From NCBI GenBank assembly GCA_021770785.1, contig JAETQH010000018.1:1-64000 (forward strand): 64,000 bases of DNA, written 5' to 3'. Source of the stretch: Lachnospiraceae bacterium. Lineage in GTDB: Bacteria; Bacillota; Clostridia; Lachnospirales; Lachnospiraceae. The position numbers and the translations under genes are program-made. The notes beneath the pieces are model-generated. The model was given only the letters and a program-made list of their open reading frames with translations. It was not told where the DNA came from and did no database searches. Numbering within the stretch: the stretch's first letter is position 1; each line of letters starts with the position of its first letter. Of this stretch, positions 27,461 through 37,014 are shown piece after piece.

Positions 27461-27533
27461 AAAAAACCCCCGTCTTTTCCAAAGTATTTTCTGTTTTTCA
27501 AATTCCATTATAAAAAAGTACTGGTGGAATTAC

Positions 27534-27570
27534 AACAAAAAAACGATAAGAACACACCTATCTTACCGTT
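27534..27570 (-). terminator. terminator of the toroid-protein gene
   Basis: Minus strand ACGGTAAGA, a 9-base loop and TCTTATCGT (one G-T pair), followed by TTTTTTTG. It lies 10 bp past the stop codon. Confidence 0.85.
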
Positions 27571-27579
27571 TTCTCTCTG

Positions 27580-28500
27580 TCAGATTTTTCCCATAGCCTT
27601 AAGATAGCGCATATTATCCAGCGCAAGGGCAGCCCGCCACCAGTTGGCGCTGATTTCATATTCTTTATAGTCTGTCCCCCACTGCCATGTCACAGGATAC
27701 GAACCGTCTGCGCACTGCCCCTTCCCTATGCTGTCCGCCTGCATTTCGCATAATTCTTTTCCGGCAATCTCAAAAATCCGGCACTTCGGCTCAAAAAAAT
27801 CCACAGGTTTAAACACATATTCCCGATACCATTTTTCCGGCTCTCTGCAGACTGCCCTGTTCACGGCTCCCTGCACCTTTTCCCTGAATGCCTCCAAATC
27901 AAACAGCGAAAAATTCTCAATTTCCTCACAGTCCAACAGCAATTCCAGAAAATTTTTTACGGTGTGCATTTCCTCCGTGGGCAGTTCCATAAATTCAGAA
28001 ACCGCCTTCTTCACAATCCCGCAGGCTGTTTCATACAGCGGACTGTTTTCTTCCGAAAACCGCAGCAAAAACCCCGCTAGGCTGACTGTCGGATTGTCAT
28101 CCGGCATCCCTGTCCCGCAGGGGCAGCTCCACCAGACCGCATGGGGGTACCCGTTGTTCGCAGCCACCGTATTGTACCATTTCCCCTCAGCAAAATCTTT
28201 TCCGCTGCCAAGATATTTCAATATTCCCTCTACGATAGGATTGTTCCTGTCCGTAACATTCAGCTCCCGCAGAATATTCACTGCTGTCCAGGTGGCAGCC
28301 GGAGTAGAATCCGGATTCCAGTTGTCCGGCTCTAAGGCATAGCCAAAGCCGCCGTCCTCCTTCTGATACATGGCTAAAATCTCCAATACCTCTTCTGCTG
28401 TACCACCTTCAAAATGATACCTCCACCGCGCCAAATCCAAGGGTCTGGCATTCTGATACACAAACCGTTTCGCTTTTTGAAAGACTTCCCTTTCTCCCAT
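27580..28500 (-). CDS. alpha/alpha-toroid (terpenoid cyclase/prenyltransferase-fold) protein
   Basis: A 306-residue soluble protein with the repeated helical-hairpin turns of the six-barrel toroid fold. KEDGGFGYALEPDN is a QW-like turn, PHAVWWSCPCGTG lies mid-protein, and CADGSYPVTWQWGTDYKEY near the end. Related Firmicutes proteins are annotated as prenyltransferase-like, but the Asp-rich and zinc-binding motifs of true cyclases or farnesyltransferases are not evident, so the activity is unknown. GGAGGAG precedes the start. It is the first intact gene downstream of the BREX island. Confidence 0.75.
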   Translation of the reverse strand: MGEREVFQKAKRFVYQNARPLDLARWRYHFEGGTAEEVLEILAMYQKEDGGFGYALEPDNWNPDSTPAATWTAVNILRELNVTDRNNPIVEGILKYLGSGKDFAEGKWYNTVAANNGYPHAVWWSCPCGTGMPDDNPTVSLAGFLLRFSEENSPLYETACGIVKKAVSEFMELPTEEMHTVKNFLELLLDCEEIENFSLFDLEAFREKVQGAVNRAVCREPEKWYREYVFKPVDFFEPKCRIFEIAGKELCEMQADSIGKGQCADGSYPVTWQWGTDYKEYEISANWWRAALALDNMRYLKAMGKI

Positions 28501-28545
28501 AATATCTTCTCCTCCTAAATAATTTTTTTACGGGCAACCCCTTTT

Positions 28546-28638
28546 CTAATCTTCCCTGTTTTTTCCAAGCAGCTCCGCCTGCCTTTTTTTACTGAACCCT
28601 TTTAGCACCAAATGATAGGATTTCTCCAGCATATCCAT
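28546..28638 (-). pseudogene. short gene remnant between pglZ and the toroid gene
   Basis: A 30-codon frame (MDMLEKSYHLVLKG at the start, SKKRQAELLGKNRED at the end) that stays open a few codons upstream of its ATG. Its residue mix is protein-like, and it occupies the place where brxL would normally follow pglZ, but it is too short to assign. The remaining 28639-28773 stretch shows no gene. Confidence 0.3.
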
Positions 28639-28773
28639 CTTTTCCGCCTGCTCTCCGGGGAATTAGCTTTATTATAAGCCGGACAGATAACATTGTCTTG
28701 TATATTTGCGACATCCTGCTTTTACGCAAAAATACCGCCGGATAGTCCGAAACTGCCCACCGGTAATGATAAA

Positions 28774-31284
28774 TTATCCGAAATCATCTGCAAATGCAAC
28801 ATCCATAATGACCTCATGCCGGAATACCTCAACCTCATTACTCATGTCATATGCAACCAGATAGTAACGCCTATTCTGATCATATTTCTTATTTTTAAAG
28901 GTAAAGCGCATACGGAACAGCCGTTTTTGCACATCTTCATCCCGTTTATCTGCCACATAGATATTTTCATTAGATATGGTCTCATTGTCATCCGATTTAA
29001 AATAAAGTTTATAAGTTGCCTCTTTTACAGTTTCACCTACCGGCTCTGATTGGATAAAATCCAATGTTGTAACAAGGTTCGTTATCTTCTTAATTAAGCT
29101 GACAAGTGCAATCTGTACCGTAGTTTTTACCACAGCTCCTCTATCCATCTTAATGTCAATGACCGGAATTAACATTTCCTGCGGAGAAGAACCACCATGT
29201 ACATAGTTTAATCCGGCATTTCCTCTTGACTTAAACACATTTGTACTGCATGAATAGGAAACTATCTTATCATCCTCATTCCCAAGCAAATAACCCAAAT
29301 TCATATTACAGATACCGTCACAGGCAACCGATTCTTTTGCTACAATATATCTTCTCTTTTTTAATTTGTCCGGTTCTTCCGCCACGCTTACCTTATCACT
29401 TTCCGTTACCGAATCACGCTTATAAATAAACCCGTGGTCACTTGTAATTATGAACCGATATGTGTTCGCTCCACCTGCAACCCTTGTAATGAATGCTTCT
29501 ATTTCTGCCACCGCTTTGCTACAAGCCCAAAACACCTCGTTTTCGTTGTTCTCTCCTGTATTATCAATCACATCATGGTAAACGTAGATTATCTGTTTTC
29601 CCTTGAATATTTCTCTGAGAGCCATTCCGGTATAGTCCTTTATATCATCATATTTCACACAACAGCTATCGGACACATATTCCTGCAGCACCTGCTGCCT
29701 TGTTGCAAGATCAACCGCATATTTACCATCCACCAGTTCCTTAAAATCATCTGTCAGTTCCAGCTTTTTGTGCGGAAGCAATGCCTCCATTCCAAGACGT
29801 GTGTATGACGGAAGCACACTAAGGACTGCCTGAAGCGAAACTTTACTTTTCGGATTATCACTCAATTTCGCATATAGTTCACGCCCCACTTCATATCGCA
29901 TACCGTCTGATATGATAACTACCGTTCGCTCCTTATTGTTTTTTACATATTTATTAAAAAACTCTCTCTGCAGAGGTATCACCGATAATGCATCCTGTTC
30001 TGCCAGTCCTTCATTCCACTTAGGAAGCAGTTTTCCCAAGTATTCATTTGTATAAATATTCTCCACCAGCTCACGCAGATTCTGAAACCCGTCTTTATCT
30101 TCCAACTTGTCATAATTCATATAAAACTCTCTATAATTGGTATCTGTCAGACAATCACTCGCCTGATACCAGTCCACAATTTTTTTGAAACCGTCGGGAG
30201 CTTCGTAATTTGCTTTTGAAATGACCCAATACGCACTATGCAGCATCCGGTATATCACACCATACTTTCCGCCAAAGTGCATTTTACCTCTCATTTCACA
30301 TAGCTCTATGATATTATGGTCATCCAGTTTCGCAATCATATCCTCCGCAAGAAGTCTTTCCATCATCCAACGGATAAGAATTACGTCTATTACCGCAAAG
30401 GAATCACAATCTACCAATTTCTCCGGTTCCATTCTTTCAAAGACCTCTGCCACATCCAATATTCCGGCAACATAAGCAGATAATTCATCATACTTATCAC
30501 GATACAGCACGTTATTCATAAGATTGTCCATAAACGCTATGATATTGCCGGATTTATAGGAAATAAAATTCTGCCAGCCCTGCGGTAACTCTGTATTGAC
30601 ATGCCGTGCCGCATAGGTCACAAACATAGTAATAAGCAGTTTTTCCAGTGTCGGATTAACCGATGAAAAACCAAGCTGCTGTTCACAATACTTCCAGAAT
30701 GAATCAAGTAAATCATATTTTTCAAAATCTCTTATGTACTGATTATCTTCCAGCGTATCATCCATAAGAAGCACACGAAGCACTTCCTCAAAAGAGTTCG
30801 TCCTCGTCCTGCATATCGCACTCATAATACCAATCTGAATATTTTCCTCATTGAAGTTCTCTATCTCCAAGTCATAAAAACGCTGAATTCTGTTTTTCTC
30901 TGAAAAATATTTGATGTGTTTTTGAATAATGGGTTTATACTTCTCTTCTATTCCCAAGTCCGCGGCTAGCAAAGAAGCCCTGTCCGCATAAAAACGCTTC
31001 GAGTAAAGAAGTGTATCCTCCAGATGATTTTCCGTCACAGGCGGCTTCGGAAACGGAGCATATACCAAATAATTTGTTGCAGTATCTACCTTTTCCAGAA
31101 AATACTTCGTATAAAACTGGTTATCCGGTTTCAATAGATATACTTTCGCATTATCTAAACAAATATCATCTATCTCGTCTGCAAATTCGCCCTTTTCGTC
31201 ATACCAAAATACCAGCTTACGGCTTTCTCCAGTAAACTCTTTATTTAGCTTGTCTACTATCTGTTTCAGGTTAAGTTCTGCCAT
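28774..31284 (-). CDS. pglZ: BREX-1 phosphatase-like protein PglZ
   Basis: An 836-residue protein of the length usual for BREX type 1 PglZ. The alkaline-phosphatase-superfamily PglZ domain lies in the second half: metal-site strands VVIISDGMRYEVGRELYAKL and RFIITSDHGFIYKRDSV, with a QEMLIPVID segment after them. PglZ is one of the two genes present in every BREX type and is needed for host methylation and phage resistance; its exact reaction is unsettled. No frameshift or stop breaks it. It starts 3 bp after the nuclease gene's stop with an AGAGGTG site. This is the last BREX gene seen; brxL, normally next, is missing. Confidence 0.93.
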   Translation of the reverse strand: MAELNLKQIVDKLNKEFTGESRKLVFWYDEKGEFADEIDDICLDNAKVYLLKPDNQFYTKYFLEKVDTATNYLVYAPFPKPPVTENHLEDTLLYSKRFYADRASLLAADLGIEEKYKPIIQKHIKYFSEKNRIQRFYDLEIENFNEENIQIGIMSAICRTRTNSFEEVLRVLLMDDTLEDNQYIRDFEKYDLLDSFWKYCEQQLGFSSVNPTLEKLLITMFVTYAARHVNTELPQGWQNFISYKSGNIIAFMDNLMNNVLYRDKYDELSAYVAGILDVAEVFERMEPEKLVDCDSFAVIDVILIRWMMERLLAEDMIAKLDDHNIIELCEMRGKMHFGGKYGVIYRMLHSAYWVISKANYEAPDGFKKIVDWYQASDCLTDTNYREFYMNYDKLEDKDGFQNLRELVENIYTNEYLGKLLPKWNEGLAEQDALSVIPLQREFFNKYVKNNKERTVVIISDGMRYEVGRELYAKLSDNPKSKVSLQAVLSVLPSYTRLGMEALLPHKKLELTDDFKELVDGKYAVDLATRQQVLQEYVSDSCCVKYDDIKDYTGMALREIFKGKQIIYVYHDVIDNTGENNENEVFWACSKAVAEIEAFITRVAGGANTYRFIITSDHGFIYKRDSVTESDKVSVAEEPDKLKKRRYIVAKESVACDGICNMNLGYLLGNEDDKIVSYSCSTNVFKSRGNAGLNYVHGGSSPQEMLIPVIDIKMDRGAVVKTTVQIALVSLIKKITNLVTTLDFIQSEPVGETVKEATYKLYFKSDDNETISNENIYVADKRDEDVQKRLFRMRFTFKNKKYDQNRRYYLVAYDMSNEVEVFRHEVIMDVAFADDFG

Positions 31285-31287
31285 TAT

Positions 31288-31824
31288 CTACACCTCTATG
31301 GTTTCCATCTCATAAATTGGATACTGCGGATATTTTTCTTGCCATTCTTTTAAGTCTATCAGACAAAATTCATCAATTACCTTTCTTTGAATTTCATTTC
31401 TGGTACTGTATTTAAATGGTAACTGACGCATCATCTTCATAGTAAATCTCTTCTTTAATGCAGTATCCATACTTGGATTAGTTTCCATCAACAAAACATA
31501 TTGCACTGGTTTATCCAACTGATTTCTGTTACATGCCCACACAAGAAACATTGTTCCATAAAATTTTTTAGCTATCTTTTTCCAAAATTCTTCCCCAACA
31601 ATCTTCTGTTTGAAAGCCTCAGGATTGTCTGCATTTTTGACGTTTCCATTCTTATATTCCAAACAAATCAGCTTTTCTTTCTCCTCCACTACGAAATCAA
31701 CATCTGATAAAAATTCGGAATATAAATTTGCCAGTTCATGGGGTTCAAACACATCTAACGCATTTGAAAAATCAAACTTCATTTTTCTGTTTTCATCCCA
31801 TAAAATTTTGCTGTTTTTCTTCAT
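31288..31824 (-). CDS. predicted PD-(D/E)XK nuclease-like protein within the BREX island
   Basis: About 178 residues, no signal or membrane segment. The segment SDVDFVVEEKEKLICLEYKN places Asp43, Glu56 and Lys58 in the D-x(n)-E-x-K arrangement of PD-(D/E)XK nucleases, on two predicted beta strands. The remainder is rich in aromatic and basic residues (KKFYGTMFLVWACNRNQ). The ATG at 31824 has GGTGAG upstream; an in-frame GTG at 31836 falls in that site. It begins 15 bp after the ATPase gene, so the two are a pair. The family is not one I can name; the nuclease call rests on the motif alone. A DNA-end or phage-DNA cleavage role with the ATPase is inference. Confidence 0.6.
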   Translation of the reverse strand: MKKNSKILWDENRKMKFDFSNALDVFEPHELANLYSEFLSDVDFVVEEKEKLICLEYKNGNVKNADNPEAFKQKIVGEEFWKKIAKKFYGTMFLVWACNRNQLDKPVQYVLLMETNPSMDTALKKRFTMKMMRQLPFKYSTRNEIQRKVIDEFCLIDLKEWQEKYPQYPIYEMETIEV

Positions 31825-31839
31825 CTGTATTCTCACCGC

Positions 31840-32895
31840 CTAATCCAACATGTTCTTCTTTATCGCTTCCTCTAAAAGGCTATCATCCGCTGCAACAATC
31901 TTATTCCCTTTTAACATGCTTAAATAATTAGCAGACCGACTATAGATTTCCATTTTCTCTTCATTATCTGTCTCAAATGGTTTATATTCAGATGCTACGT
32001 CGGCAGAAGCGCGATATAAATTGTGATATAATACCTGCTCTTCTCTTTTTCTTCTAATTTCAAAATACTTTGCCAAATTGTAACTATGTGTCGCAATAAA
32101 TATCTGGATGCCAGCCTCTTCTAATTCCAACAAAATATCTACGACAAGTGGAAACAACTCAGGATTTAGATTTGCCTCCGGTTCATCCCATAAAAGTATC
32201 GTTCCTTTTTCCAAAAGCCCGTTACGGATTAATTTCCATAGCAGACCTAATTTGCGCAATCCCTCTGCCTCTAAAGAAAAATCTACCTTTCTTCCATCTG
32301 TCTTCATCACATAAAAAGTATCATCTTCCACTACGACTGTTCCGTCGATTGCTTTACTGATCTTCTCTAAAACTTTTTCCATAAAATCAGGCAGTTCCCG
32401 TGCTTCCGGTAAAGAAGCATTTACAATGATATCTACCTGCGTACCATCAAATGGCAGTTTAAATTTTTTATCTAATGCCAGAAAGCCCTTTGAATGAGAT
32501 AACATTTCTGTCGTTGGAATATATACCGATTGAATGTTCAGCCCCAGCCACTGGTCATAATCAAAGATTCCTTTCTGAGACAAGCTATTTGTAAATTTGT
32601 GTTCACCATCGGATACCTCAAAATAAGAATAATCCTCTTTTCTCCCATAATTTTTTAATAAGTCCGTATTTGACAAATTACTGGAAAAAAAATCTACAAA
32701 CTTTTTTGTTTTTCCGGCATTCGTTTGCGGTATTGACCACTGTGTTGCTGCATAAATCATTTTGAGCAAAGTCGTCTTTCCCACACCATTTTCACCAAGC
32801 AATATATTAATGCCATCGCAAAAATGTAATTGAAATGCTTCACGTTGTTGTTGAAATGCCATAACATTTAGAACTTTTATTGATTTGATTGCCAT
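31840..32895 (-). CDS. AAA/ABC-type ATPase (AAA_21-like) within the BREX island
   Basis: A 351-residue soluble ATPase. Walker A GENGVGKTT is at 34-42, a helical/beta insert without zinc hook follows, Walker B is TILLWDEPEANLNPE (about 240), and the switch His is in FIATHSYNLAKYF. This is the architecture of RecF/OLD-like ATPases found as sensors in many two-gene phage-defence modules. AGAGGTG precedes the start. It lies 38 bp after the pglX remnant and is directly followed by the predicted nuclease gene. Both reading frames are intact although their BREX neighbours upstream are broken. Confidence 0.85.
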   Translation of the reverse strand: MAIKSIKVLNVMAFQQQREAFQLHFCDGINILLGENGVGKTTLLKMIYAATQWSIPQTNAGKTKKFVDFFSSNLSNTDLLKNYGRKEDYSYFEVSDGEHKFTNSLSQKGIFDYDQWLGLNIQSVYIPTTEMLSHSKGFLALDKKFKLPFDGTQVDIIVNASLPEARELPDFMEKVLEKISKAIDGTVVVEDDTFYVMKTDGRKVDFSLEAEGLRKLGLLWKLIRNGLLEKGTILLWDEPEANLNPELFPLVVDILLELEEAGIQIFIATHSYNLAKYFEIRRKREEQVLYHNLYRASADVASEYKPFETDNEEKMEIYSRSANYLSMLKGNKIVAADDSLLEEAIKKNMLD

Positions 32896-32933
32896 GCTTT
32901 TTCACCTCTTTTTCAACATTCCTTTTCGGCACA

Positions 32934-33240
32934 TTATATCTTTGCCAATACCTGATATTTCTTTCCATCATTAGCTGTCTGCATTTTTTCATAATTGACT
33001 TTTACACCATCGTCTAAGTCAATCTCAATTCTGGACAACGCCAAGTGACCTATCTTTTCATCGTATTCTTTACATTCTTTCAGTTGCTTTTGAAGTTTCT
33101 CCTTACGTTTTGTAGCTGCTGTAACTTCTCTGGCAACGGTACTGTTATCAACCGTATCCTGCATACGGTTGATTTCACTCTCATAAATACGCTCCATCCT
33201 ATGCAGATAATCCACACGTAAATTTCCTATCTTTGTATTC
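32934..33240 (-). pseudogene. pglX: 3' remnant of the BREX methyltransferase gene pglX
   Basis: About the last 100 codons of a PglX-type adenine methyltransferase. The visible part has a coiled-coil stretch starting LRVDYLHRMERIYESEI, then KEYDEKIGHLALSRIEIDLD and a final DGVKVNYEKMQ...LLAKI-like end, which is the standard C terminus of PglX and related type IIG enzymes. The catalytic NPPY-bearing domain and ~1000 upstream codons are absent. The frame runs directly out of brxC sequence at about 33225-33245, with brxC read in another frame, so a single deletion joined the two genes. Without the methyltransferase, self-marking is not possible from this locus. Confidence 0.75.
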
Positions 33241-33645
33241 CTTTGCGTCCAAGACTTCAAACACTCTTTTCTGAGATGCTGCAATAGAATCCTTTACCGG
33301 AGCAAGCTGTTCATCCAACACCTTTGAATACGCATCGTTAAACTTCTGTAAATCATCCTGACGCTTTGTCACGGTAGAATAAAATTCTGCCGGCTGTTCA
33401 ATCTGTGTTATATCCTGCAAAAGTTTAATGCCATTTCTGACAACTTTTTTTCCCGGATAAGCTGTGCTCTCATAACGGACACTAAGGCTTTTCAAATCTC
33501 CTATGAGCTCTTGACTGTAATTCATGAACTTGTCCATCACCATATCTTCATCTTCTGATGCAAAGGAAATATGGAACAATTCTTTCATAATATCCCTGAC
33601 AGCTTTCTTCTCCTTATCAGGCACCCGAATCCTAACCTCCATCAT
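33199..33645 (-). pseudogene. brxC: internal fragment from the C-terminal half of brxC
   Basis: A 148-codon frame, overlapping the stop of the preceding brxC part as TCATGATGG. It contains helical sequence typical of the latter half of BrxC: EKKAVRDIMKELFHI, then STAYPGKKVVRNGIKLLQDI and DEQLAPVKDSIAASQKRVFE. It has no Walker motif. It runs into sequence that belongs to pglX in another frame and ends soon after. The true upstream frame extends past the ATG (FVEKLMMEVRI), so this is not a separate gene but a displaced piece of brxC. Confidence 0.75.
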
Positions 33646-35528
33646 GAGCTTCTCAACAAAGGCTTATAAAGTCTGTCATCCACAATCTGATTAAAACCAA
33701 ACGTATAACGGCCATTAAAAGCCGGATAACGATACTTCTTATCTGTAAAAATATCCTCAAAAATCATTTCCGACGCTTTATTAATGATTTCTGCCATTTC
33801 TGCACTCTGGCTCTCAATCTCTCTATTGATTTCCTGTTCTTCATCTGTCAAAAATACATAGACATTCCCATTAGGCTGTACAAGCATCTGACGCACTAAT
33901 ATCTTTAATGCCTTTTCTACTCTTTCTTTCAGTTCCACACGGTCATCTTCGATATTAGAAATCATAAGACTTGTTATATTCTCAACATTTGCCTCAACGT
34001 CATTTACATACTTAATCATAAATAAAGTCTTCAATACATTTATTGCAAATACGTCTTTCTCCTTATGCTCCGGATTAATAAAACTATTTTCATAAGCTTT
34101 CAGGATTACTCCCCGATGACTATGGTCTAAAAAATTTTCCAACGCGTCATAAAAAGCATAGAATGGGATAATAGTCCCCTCTTCATACTCCATATATGCG
34201 GCGGCTGATTCTTTGAACATCGCAAGCATGGACCGTTCTCCCTCTGATAAATGCTTACCGGAAGCTCCGTGTGTACGGATAGCAGTAAGAACACTTGCAA
34301 GCAAATTAAACTGATATGGTACAAATGGATAGACTAAAGCAAAGTCGTTTTCGTCTGCATATAATTTCTTCTCCACGCCATCATTAAAAATAATTTTATT
34401 TTTGATTGTGGTAGCTTTCTGGGCATAAATCAGACGCAATGTCTGTGCCGGCACTTCCTTTTTCTCTAAAATCCTCCTTTTGATAACTTCATCTACGTTG
34501 GCAGAGGATAATGCAAGCCTGGTATCAAAACGTCCCTGAAGCTTTGAGAAATCATTTCCCTTTACCTTTGTCACGGAATCAATATCCTGCTGGCTGGTTA
34601 CAATCACCCATGCCTTACCCATACATTCTTTTCCAAGCTCTTCCGTAACCGTCTGCAAATTCAGCATAAGCTTCGTATCTTCTCCGATATACTGTCCAAT
34701 CTCATCTACCAGGAATACTACATGATGGTTATTTCCTTTATACTCAATATATGCTTTTACTCTCTTTGCAAAATCCTCAATACTAATCTGATATGGTTCG
34801 CTTACCTTTTCACACCAATTTCTGGCAGCCGCCTCGCTCATAAAATCCATATCAGCTAATACTTGTACAACATCATCCTGAATAAAATCAAAATCCTGTC
34901 TGGACTTTTCCCAGGAATCTCCATAACCCTCATTGAACTTTTCTTTAAACTCCTGATACCTTCCCTCTTCAGTCAACTTCCTTTCCAAATCTGCAAGAAA
35001 TGGTATCGCACCACAAAATCCCTGCATTTCATTAAACACTTTCAGGAACACATTTACGATTGCATCTTTATTCTGTTTACTACCCCCATCGCTCTTTGAA
35101 TCGATATTAAAAAGTACAACATCTGTAGAAATATTTGCAGCTAATTCCATATCTGCAATTACCATAGGATCAATAATTTTAGCTTTACCGGTAAAGTTTT
35201 TACCGGGAGCAGCACTATCCCCCACAAAGTAATCAATTGCCCTATGCTCTCCAACCTCTTTATTTCCAAGCAGATAAGATAAGATTTTTAAGAAATGAGA
35301 TTTACCACTCCCAAAAAAACCGGAAATCCAAACACCCATTTTCGGCGTGTTTCCATTCATCCCTTTTTTATATGCGGAAAAGAAATCTGCAAAATGTCTT
35401 TGCAGCTCTTTTGTTACAACATATTCGTCAAGTTCCTGTGCTACATTCTCCTCTTCATCCTGACCGACAATAATAACTCCCTGTATATCACGGTCAATTT
35501 CTCTCTCAAACATTTCTCTAATCTGCAT
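33642..35528 (-). CDS. brxC: BREX P-loop ATPase BrxC, truncated after ~628 residues
   Basis: The N-terminal half of BrxC: MQIREMFEREIDRDI at the start, Walker A GFFGSGKS at 70-77, Walker B in HHVVFLVDEIGQYIG near 270, then the sensor and arginine-finger region (VTKVKGNDFSKLQGRFDTRLAL). Full BrxC is ~1100-1250 residues. Here the frame ends after FGFNQIVDDRLYKP, normally followed by another ~500 residues. BrxC is an essential ATPase of BREX, so defence is probably lost unless the truncated protein works differently. The start at 35528 is chosen for GGAGG 6 bases upstream. It lies 39 bp after brxB. Confidence 0.9.
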   Translation of the reverse strand: MQIREMFEREIDRDIQGVIIVGQDEEENVAQELDEYVVTKELQRHFADFFSAYKKGMNGNTPKMGVWISGFFGSGKSHFLKILSYLLGNKEVGEHRAIDYFVGDSAAPGKNFTGKAKIIDPMVIADMELAANISTDVVLFNIDSKSDGGSKQNKDAIVNVFLKVFNEMQGFCGAIPFLADLERKLTEEGRYQEFKEKFNEGYGDSWEKSRQDFDFIQDDVVQVLADMDFMSEAAARNWCEKVSEPYQISIEDFAKRVKAYIEYKGNNHHVVFLVDEIGQYIGEDTKLMLNLQTVTEELGKECMGKAWVIVTSQQDIDSVTKVKGNDFSKLQGRFDTRLALSSANVDEVIKRRILEKKEVPAQTLRLIYAQKATTIKNKIIFNDGVEKKLYADENDFALVYPFVPYQFNLLASVLTAIRTHGASGKHLSEGERSMLAMFKESAAAYMEYEEGTIIPFYAFYDALENFLDHSHRGVILKAYENSFINPEHKEKDVFAINVLKTLFMIKYVNDVEANVENITSLMISNIEDDRVELKERVEKALKILVRQMLVQPNGNVYVFLTDEEQEINREIESQSAEMAEIINKASEMIFEDIFTDKKYRYPAFNGRYTFGFNQIVDDRLYKPLLRSS

Positions 35529-35567
35529 TTGCGGCCTCCACTTTTCGCACAAAATTTTCCCACATTA

Positions 35568-36158
35568 TTATCGTACCAGGCGGAACGCCCGGTAATAATT
35601 GTCTTCCGGGTATTCGTTAAATATAATTAACTCCTGTTCCGTATAGGTTCCCGGATAAAATAAAACCATAGGAACACTTGCAAAATTCCCCGGCATATTA
35701 TACAAAATCTTGTTAAATACCTCCGGAGCCCGTAAGACAGGATAGCATTTTCCAATCCCTGTCAATAACACAACCGAATTTTCCGGGGTATGCTTCGCTA
35801 TATATTCCACAATCAGATTTTCCTTATCCGTAATTTTTAATGAACGCTGAATTGCATGAGTCACTTTGACAATTCCACGCTTTTCTTCCATTGCATAGCA
35901 TTTTTCCATAAATCCTTTTTGCTTAAGGTGTTCTATCATCAAATCATACAAATCATATACCACCAGTTCAAAACCTTCTGTACCTCTTTGATTTTTGTTT
36001 TTCCAATAAGTTATTCTCTCTCTGACGGTCAATTCATCTTCCGGCCTGTAATCAAATACCCAATAATTAACCTCATTCGCCTTTCCTTTTGTTTGACGAA
36101 ACGAAGGCTTTTTTATCAGAATCTCCATCTGATTCAGTCTGTCTTCTATATTGTTCAT
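35568..36158 (-). CDS. brxB: BREX protein BrxB (DUF1788)
   Basis: A 196-residue protein beginning MNNIEDRLNQMEILIKKPSF. The DUF1788 segments are visible: VNYWVFDYRPEDELTVRERI, VVYDLYDLMIEHL, SVVLLTGIGKCYPVLRAPEV and VPMVLFYPGTYTEQEL, with FNEYPEDNYYRAFRL at the end. BrxB is a core component of type 1 BREX; its biochemical role is not settled. The start at 36158 overlaps the brxA stop as TAATG, with AGGGG 8 bases upstream. The reading frame is intact. Confidence 0.92.
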   Translation of the reverse strand: MNNIEDRLNQMEILIKKPSFRQTKGKANEVNYWVFDYRPEDELTVRERITYWKNKNQRGTEGFELVVYDLYDLMIEHLKQKGFMEKCYAMEEKRGIVKVTHAIQRSLKITDKENLIVEYIAKHTPENSVVLLTGIGKCYPVLRAPEVFNKILYNMPGNFASVPMVLFYPGTYTEQELIIFNEYPEDNYYRAFRLVR

Positions 36159-36760
36159 TATCGTACCCCTGTTAAAGCTTTTACAATCGGTTCCATTTCG
36201 TGATCCATAAGCCATTGCTCCATTTCCCTATCCAGAATCGGTTTTAAAATTTTTCTCGTTTCTTTCCCTTTATCTGTTATTCCCGATTCATAAAGCATAG
36301 TTTTATAACATCTGCCAAGCCTTTTTAATGTTGCTTCTGTCCACTTAGCAACTTTTTCATCCTGTATCTGTTTATCCTTGAAAAAAATTCTAATATCGCT
36401 GTCAGCATATTCATTACTACCGATTATCATTTTTTCCCGTATGACTTCATAGACAAAATCAAAAAACAATGTGTCATATGCCATAGCAGCCGTTAAAACA
36501 AACAGCTTTTGGATTGACACATCTCCTTTAATAAAAACAGGGTAGAAAGATTCATCTAACACTTTAATTCTTGCTGTTACTGTGCTATATATCTGGTTAG
36601 ATCTGGCAGGGGTTGAAGTTGCAAAAAGATTTTCATTTTGTGCCAACTCCTTTATCTCCTCATATGATTTTCCTTCAGCCAGAAGTTTCACAACGCTTTT
36701 AAATTCCATAAACCAAAACGAGAATTTTACAGCACCAGCACTATATTCTTTTCTCTCCAT
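36158..36760 (-). CDS. brxA: BREX protein BrxA (DUF1819)
   Basis: A 200-residue, DUF1819-type helical protein. KFSFWFMEFKSVVKLLAEGKSYEEIKE is the N-terminal signature, TPARSNQIYSTVTARIKVL and LFVLTAAMAYDTLFFDFVYEV lie in the middle, and ADSDIRIFFKDKQIQ near the end. BrxA is a small DNA-binding-type protein at the head of type 1 BREX operons. The reading frame is intact. It is the first gene of the island; no regulator (for example a WYL protein) is seen upstream, where a terminator and two small genes lie. Confidence 0.92.
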   Translation of the reverse strand: MERKEYSAGAVKFSFWFMEFKSVVKLLAEGKSYEEIKELAQNENLFATSTPARSNQIYSTVTARIKVLDESFYPVFIKGDVSIQKLFVLTAAMAYDTLFFDFVYEVIREKMIIGSNEYADSDIRIFFKDKQIQDEKVAKWTEATLKRLGRCYKTMLYESGITDKGKETRKILKPILDREMEQWLMDHEMEPIVKALTGVR

Positions 36761-36954
36761 GATTGTCTATACATTCTCCTCACAACCTGATTTATTAATA
36801 AATCCATCGTAAAACAGTGTACCATATTCTTTCCAAGATTGATACAAAAAAGTACAGGCATTTATCCTAAACCTGCATACCCGATGGCAGAAGCCAGAAC
36901 TGGCTTTAGCATATATTTCTCAATCCGACAATCCAAGATACTTCTCCTAAAAAC

Positions 36955-37014
36955 CAAAAAGTGGCTTAAAACCTTGCAAAATCACTATTTTCCAAGGTTT
37001 CAAGCCACTTTTTC
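36955..37014. terminator. long bidirectional terminator between small-protein genes and brxA
   Basis: Nested stem: AAAAAGTGGCTT with AAGCCACTTTTT, and inside it AAAACCTTG with CAAGGTTT, around a short loop. T runs follow on both strands. It ends the leftward small-protein transcript 26 bp after its stop and shields the BREX operon. The 36761-36954 stretch, presumably holding the brxA promoter, shows no gene. Confidence 0.85.

Follow-up and report, generated by a model that had tools for sequence, protein, structure and literature searches.

An intact gene pair matching the candidate defence system HEC-02 within a decayed BREX-1 operon of a Lachnospiraceae bacterium

Do defence genes that are embedded in a larger defence operon depend on that operon? 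The locus described here is a natural experiment on this question, as a catalogued but apparently uncharacterized candidate module outlives the operon that carries it. It is located in the window, i.e., the whole stretch of 64,000 nucleotides of Lachnospiraceae DNA that was analyzed. A first-pass annotation had proposed that an ATPase and an adjacent predicted nuclease form an independent abortive or nuclease defence module, still working after the surrounding BREX operon decayed.

A BREX-1 operon in decay

All genes of the locus lie on the minus strand, in the order brxA, brxB, truncated brxC, brxC fragment, pglX tail, ATPase, nuclease and pglZ. Intact are brxA (36158..36760; Pfam BrxA, E = 1.5e-59), brxB (35568..36215; Pfam BrxB, E = 5.5e-34) and a pglZ of type A, that of BREX-1 (28774..31284; 836 aa; TIGR02687, E = 2e-157). 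From brxC, only the N-terminal half (33642..35552; positions 1-603 of 1190 in model PDLC02471) and a remnant of the internal helical part (33199..33645; BREX_BrxC_helical, E = 3.3e-25; BrxC model positions 854-968) are left, and a whole-assembly search yielded no other BrxC stretches. The pglX ghost described in the first-pass annotation is real: 32934..33284 matches only the C-terminal ~90 residues of PglX models (PADLOC PglX, E = 3.3e-28, positions 1078-1170 of 1174; NF033452, positions 1122-1209 of 1210). Across the whole assembly, a single further PglX match of 17.8 bits was obtained, and the BrxL query gave only a stretch of 20% identity. A working BREX-1 needs intact brxC, pglX and brxL. 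Because brxC and pglX are present only as fragments and brxL was not found in the assembly, BREX is very likely dead in this genome, provided that the assembly is correct. The latter comprises 246 contigs with an estimated contamination of 6.9%, and it is the sole source for the two brxC-pglX deletions.

Downstream of brxA and brxB, within the former single operon, two intact frames separate the pglX remnant from pglZ, as had been noticed before. They encode the ATPase (31840..32895, minus strand; 351 aa) and the nuclease (31288..31836, minus strand). The nuclease frame comprises 182 aa when read from a GTG at 31836 and 178 aa from an ATG at 31824, which is 15 bp from the ATPase stop. The GTG was rejected as the true start, as a ribosome-binding-like sequence is placed to fit the ATG. 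Direct reading of the sequence shows a GGTGAG-like site 5' of the nuclease and a GAGGTG-like site 5' of the ATPase. The intactness of the pair in the window is in itself no evidence of selection, since the frames of pglZ, brxA and brxB have stayed open as well.

Identity of the ATPase and the nuclease

The ATPase contains a Walker A motif (GENGVGKT, with K40), a Walker B motif (LLWDEP, with D237/E238) and a switch histidine (H270), features that were correctly read at first pass; K40, D237, E238 and H270 are invariant in 17 aligned ATPase sequences. The AlphaFold model (pTM 0.83) has Septu PtuA (8eea) as top Foldseek match (E = 1.8e-12), followed by Rad50 and retron effectors, and retron PtuA, Eco8 OLD and AriA are among the matches of a profile search. 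Judged by sequence and model, the protein is an ABC ATPase of the OLD/PtuA type with Rad50-type relatives. An AAA+ identity was rejected and the earlier designation as 'AAA' ATPase needs correction: fold and profile point to ABC/OLD, and the 'AAA' derives only from the label of Pfam profile AAA_21 (E = 2.5e-19).

In the nuclease, Asp43, Glu56 and Lys58 are located where they had been reported and, together with V42, E47 and K87, are invariant in a set of closer sequences (19/19). A broad alignment (n = 18), in which relatives share 12-35% identity with the window protein, retains Asp or Glu at position 43 (18/18), E56 (18/18), K58 (17/18, Arg once) and K87 (18/18). The structure prediction of the 178-residue protein (AlphaFold pTM 0.77, mean pLDDT 75.5) gave a fitting order of elements: D43 stands just before a strand (44-47), E56 and K58 are within the next one (52-59), and K87 is in a long helix (78-98) that precedes strand 107-114. 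The structural matches, however, are weak, with a best Foldseek E of 0.033, none below 0.001 and a query TM-score of at most 0.37 among the 50 rows shown. Around 37 of these 50 rows are PD-(D/E)XK enzymes (Can2, Cdn1, Mus81, Hjc/Hje, BspD6I, HincII, RecU, MGME1 and an arenavirus endonuclease), although many rows represent chains of the same ~10 proteins. The family profile pairs the motif with D33, E46 and K48 of the Hjc resolvase (1gef), its catalytic residues, at an E of only 0.34. A ferritin match of the same profile, better than Hjc at E = 0.012, was considered chance because it lacks the E-x-K, and so was the single NCBIfam match (E = 0.096). The window nuclease has no Pfam match; among the 18 nuclease sequences, two match NERD (best E = 7e-05) and one matches DUF6661 (E = 2e-17). 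On the basis of sequence and model, the nuclease likely belongs to the PD-(D/E)XK superfamily, with moderate structural support.

The nuclease family, which could not be named at first pass, is that of HEC-02B, and by sequence the pair matches HEC-02, a candidate defence system already catalogued in PADLOC. This assignment uses single-protein PADLOC models: the ATPase matches HEC-02A (PDLC04213, E = 6e-102, positions 1-334 of 337) and the nuclease HEC-02B (PDLC04217, E = 1.1e-56, positions 2-167 of 169). Other ATPase models score far more weakly on the window ATPase, i.e., AriA (3.2e-20), AbiLi (3.5e-16), GajA (7.3e-15), PD-T4-4_A (7.1e-11) and PtuA (1.8e-10). The nuclease matches only HEC-02B models and, weakly, PDC-S01; AriB, the TOPRIM partner of AriA, does not appear, nor does a PD-T4-4_B label at E 0.1, for which the model set may have no entry. 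PARIS and Gabija were rejected as identities of the pair, as neither scores nor partner fit. In PADLOC-DB, the A/B labels of PDLC04145 and PDLC04146 seem swapped: PDLC04146 (labelled HEC-02B) matches ATPases and PDLC04145 (labelled HEC-02A) matches nucleases. HEC-02 was reportedly named in a preprint of Payne et al. 2024. PMC12988326 gives HEC as 'Hma-embedded candidate'. In the window, the two genes adjoin each other in the HEC-02 order, and both proteins match nearly the whole of their models; unlike the Hma embedding behind the name, the host operon is a decayed BREX-1. No phage assay or other activity test of HEC-02 was found in the literature that was searched.

The pair in other genomes and operons

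The closest relatives of the window pair are those of a Clostridia bacterium (L053) and an uncultured Roseburia (L054), each with a nuclease of 84% identity; across the three pairs, protein identity amounts to ~82-88%. In L053, only a pglZ stub follows the pair, and in L054 the pair is located between tgt and yajC. DNA similarity between window positions 27501-37000 and L054 is limited to 31310-32910, i.e., the pair itself, whereas for L053 it continues into the 5' part of pglZ. None of 20 tgt loci of the family carries the pair (drawn from 143 matching genomes out of 150, one of them the window's own); in 18 of these loci yajC occurs within ~350 bp of tgt, in another the distance is ~1 kb, and in the last no yajC was found. 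Among the three pairs, NG86 gives dN/dS values of 0.05-0.065 (ATPase) and 0.06-0.10 (nuclease), and YN00 gives 0.05-0.11 and a higher 0.19-0.25, respectively; given NG86 dS values of 0.8-1.7, these ratios are only indications of purifying selection. From these sequences, the pair in L053 and L054 is apparently under purifying selection. Because both genomes keep the pair, the former next to a pglZ stub and the latter in the tgt-yajC interval, it appears not to require BREX. A dependence on BREX was rejected, as L054, L056 and L059 carry the pair without it. The proposal of an independent module of ATPase and predicted nuclease thereby stands in part: the pair is found outside BREX, intact and with low dN/dS where no working BREX is present, but an abortive or phage-directed action is suggested by analogy only. 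The related pairs of the window, L053 and L054 represent three settings, so that one assay could be run with closely similar proteins.

A genome-contig search with a four-sequence nuclease alignment yielded 18 loci from 142 pattern matches. An ATPase frame lies 5' of the nuclease in 17 of the 18 (L065 has only a fragment, and at L063 the contig holds 329 bases before the nuclease). Starting from the ATPase, an adjacent nuclease is found in seven of eight plasmid records (all except Sulfuricystis), one of two phage-collection records and eight of 12 genome regions. The remaining ATPases (1/8, 1/2 and 4/12, respectively) have no recognizable adjacent nuclease or are broken, and the ATPase may thus sometimes work with other partners. 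One genome (G592) contains four HEC-02A-like loci (L039, L040, L041 and L043), with a recognizable nuclease only at L041 and a stop interrupting the match at L043. At L004/L009 (12254-12535), the HEC-02B frame loses similarity after ~50 residues, an IS4-like transposase (identified by eye) is encoded on the opposite strand and the upstream ATPase, at 306 aa, is shorter than its relatives.

The host operons are diverse, and the neighbourhood search beyond BREX islands did recover the pair in type I R-M operons and without any recognized host operon. In BREX-1, the slot between brxC and pglX is occupied in L066-L070 and on plasmids of Methylomonas koyamae (L007) and Sphingobium sp. (L050). The slot before pglZ is occupied in the window and in L061, whose contig begins just before the ATPase so that upstream genes are unseen; L053 and L057 also have the pair in this slot, before a pglZ stub (in L057 a short one of 38 residues, 53% identity, E = 7e-6). 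In Polaromonas (L048), the pair is part of a BREX-2 operon, where it is flanked by pglX and by a gene of 1240 residues that lies upstream of pglZ. In type I R-M operons, the pair is inserted between hsdM and hsdS (L058) or after hsdS, upstream of hsdR (L055). The other 18 of 32 tree rows (e.g., L054, L056, L059) have no recognized host operon. Such rows are called free if, in the stretch examined, tblastn with BREX-1 and BREX-2 queries was empty (all 18) and at most weak matches to the type I R-M subunits of L055 and L058 were obtained; these weak matches concern two of the 18 loci (L046: one, E = 0.001; L009: two, 1e-5 and 4e-4), and some stretches are short (L062, 3.7 kb; L037, 5.7 kb; L060 and L064, 7.6 kb).

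In the tree of 32 ATPases, the label restriction operon or free changes at least six times. The loci of the brxC-pglX slot form one group (100/100), whereas three changes are needed for the pre-pglZ slot. Left out before counting were L008 and L034, which duplicate the contigs of L057 and L059, as well as L035, L038, L039, L040, L043, L045, L051, L052, L063 and L065, because no partner was found, the ATPase was broken or cut, the frames were odd or the phage scaffold was unverified. As a portable cassette, the pair moves as a unit between defence operons. The interval between pglX and pglZ of BREX-1 looks like a general cargo site: it holds an AbiL-like ATPase and RloB in L070, Schlafen and GmrSD in L067 and a YhcG PDDEXK protein in L007, and is short and empty in L068. 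HEC-02-bearing BREX-1 operons also contain further intergenic cargo, namely ABC ATPases, Schlafen, GmrSD and a RloB/AbiL-like pair (L066, 6515-8177 and 14110-15291; L067, 14184-17712; L069, 6447-8544; L070, 5655-7627).

The genome of the window itself encodes a second, diverged HEC-02 pair (L032; contig C163, 9560-11093; HEC-02A, E = 3.1e-131; HEC-02B model PDLC04221, E = 3.7e-55), which adjoins a DUF4143 protein; the 18 kb examined around it contain no BREX genes. Two distant pairs are present near a gene with a maf-like start, in L042 (8590-10157) and L010 (5075-6666), possibly a recurrent landing site, and a Mitsuokella pair (L059, 8983-10519) is situated inside an apparent heptose/LPS biosynthesis cluster; these neighbours were named by eye. 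The distribution is patchy, which is what one would expect for a mobile module: within the genus, the nuclease occurs in one genome out of 62, that of the window, and within the class PDLC04217 matches five out of 391, again including that of the window. A phylum-wide search for HEC-02A matched every one of 398 genomes as well as the 14 controls, and only the strongest matches were used because ABC ATPases cross-match. Among viral contigs, no relative was confirmed with either the nuclease alone (two pattern matches) or the alignment (297), and the nuclease query found none in the phage collection.

Proposed mode of action and related systems

The pair is probably a two-gene cassette of the HEC-02 type in which, by analogy, an OLD-like ABC ATPase gates an abortive PD-(D/E)XK nuclease. 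HEC-02A is predicted to dimerize on ATP and would serve as sensor and gate. HEC-02B, a small single-domain nuclease, is predicted to bind the ATPase and, once the cell is infected, to be released or activated, with abortive infection through cleavage of host nucleic acid as the most likely outcome. Reported precedents for such an outcome are the translation shut-down by WonAB (PMC12137116) and the tRNA cleavage by PARIS. The cassette settles between genes of BREX-1, BREX-2 or type I R-M operons or in non-defence positions, and a restriction-type operon may supply it with a promoter as well as a companion defence. We infer that the two proteins form a complex, how they are activated, what they target and their phage phenotype by analogy with WonAB, Septu and PARIS-like systems, at the level of their descriptions rather than their sequences. 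Judging by the model, the nuclease fold is as compatible with DNA as with RNA; by analogy, RNA is somewhat more likely the target.

PD-(D/E)XK enzymes are mostly DNases. One could therefore imagine a restriction-like accessory, in which the ATPase places the nuclease on invading DNA for cleavage while the cell is spared, acting as a back-up nuclease to BREX. The Foldseek neighbours Hjc, Mus81 and BspD6I are in line with this, as is the repeated placement of the pair inside restriction operons. On the Sulfuricystis plasmid, the lone ATPase adjoins an N-6 DNA methylase on the opposite strand, and on the Paracoccus p7 plasmid (L046), a type ISP R-M gene is located ~5 kb from the pair; some REase effectors are, moreover, treated as auxiliary restriction factors in PMC12839542. 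Nonetheless, we consider a DNA-targeting accessory unlikely: no target-recognition or modification subunit is a constant companion of the pair, the tblastn searches for type I R-M gave only weak matches in two of 18 free loci, and genomic DNA stays intact on activation of WonAB, the nearest studied system (PMC12137116). The repeated insertion in BREX-1, BREX-2 and type I R-M operons would also be explained if HEC-02 were a guard of restriction operons, the ATPase sensing inhibition or loss of the host's restriction machine, e.g., by a phage anti-restriction protein, and firing a host-killing nuclease. This idea appears rather improbable to us; if it held, the pair in genomes like that of the window would be a stand-alone alarm freed from its ward.

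The two genes are adjacent and mobile, occur on plasmids and probable mobile elements and are kept while their neighbours decay, all of which would suit a toxin-antitoxin or addiction module that stabilizes its own locus and has no phage function. The ATPase family and the recurrent placement in restriction operons rather match defence modules, and for WonAB a simple antitoxin role is excluded, as the toxicity of WonB requires WonA (PMC12137116), which makes an addiction module highly unlikely. Finally, the pair could consist of decaying genes in a dying BREX island that are unbroken so far by chance. The decay may be recent, with pglZ, brxA and brxB likewise open in the window. Yet the catalytic residues are invariant, and L053 and L054 keep both genes, with NG86 dN/dS values of ~0.05-0.10, where BREX is a stub or was not found, so that we regard chance survival as the least probable explanation. 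The gated, abortive nuclease remains the preferred reading, and it can be compared with several known systems.

Septu (PtuA-PtuB) shares the two-gene design of ATPase and nuclease, and its PtuA (8eea) is the best Foldseek match of the window ATPase. PtuB is an HNH nuclease, in contrast to HEC-02B with its PD-(D/E)XK motif. PARIS (AriA-AriB) likewise combines an OLD-type ATPase with a separate nuclease and is linked to restriction systems. It differs in that AriB is a TOPRIM protein (PMC12839542), which HEC-02B is not, and in the score of the AriA model on the window ATPase (3.2e-20 vs. 6e-102 for HEC-02A). PMC12839542 further describes OLD-ABC ATPases that are paired, among others, with PD-(D/E)XK nucleases inside BREX loci, the same combination and setting as in the window, and proposes a back-up role. 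That role is an inferred one for BREX, whereas close relatives of the window pair were found without a working BREX; this comparison is by description.

Closest in design is WonAB from the WASA-1 prophage of V. cholerae, also a two-gene system of an OLD-like ABC ATPase and a PD-(D/E)xK nuclease (PMC12137116, as for all that follows on WonAB). Both genes and both active sites are required for its abortive action, as are the catalytic Lys and the ATPase motifs, and on activation translation is inhibited, with RNA as the suspected target. The Walker A Lys and the Walker B Glu are 266 residues apart in WonA vs. 198 in the window ATPase, which, compared by residue numbers only, suggests larger inserts in WonA. 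WonAB is closely related to an operon of OLD-ABC and a novel REase modelled from Anaerovibrio lipolyticus (Selenomonadaceae; SHI83489.1 and SHI83462.1), and the homologues of this operon encompass all WonAB homologues. HEC-02 is also found in Selenomonadaceae: eight of the 18 nuclease loci carry Selenomonadaceae or Selenomonadales titles. Next to these systems, what is new here is the intact pair in a decayed BREX operon, together with its BREX-less relatives, its several host operons and a set of similar, testable pairs.
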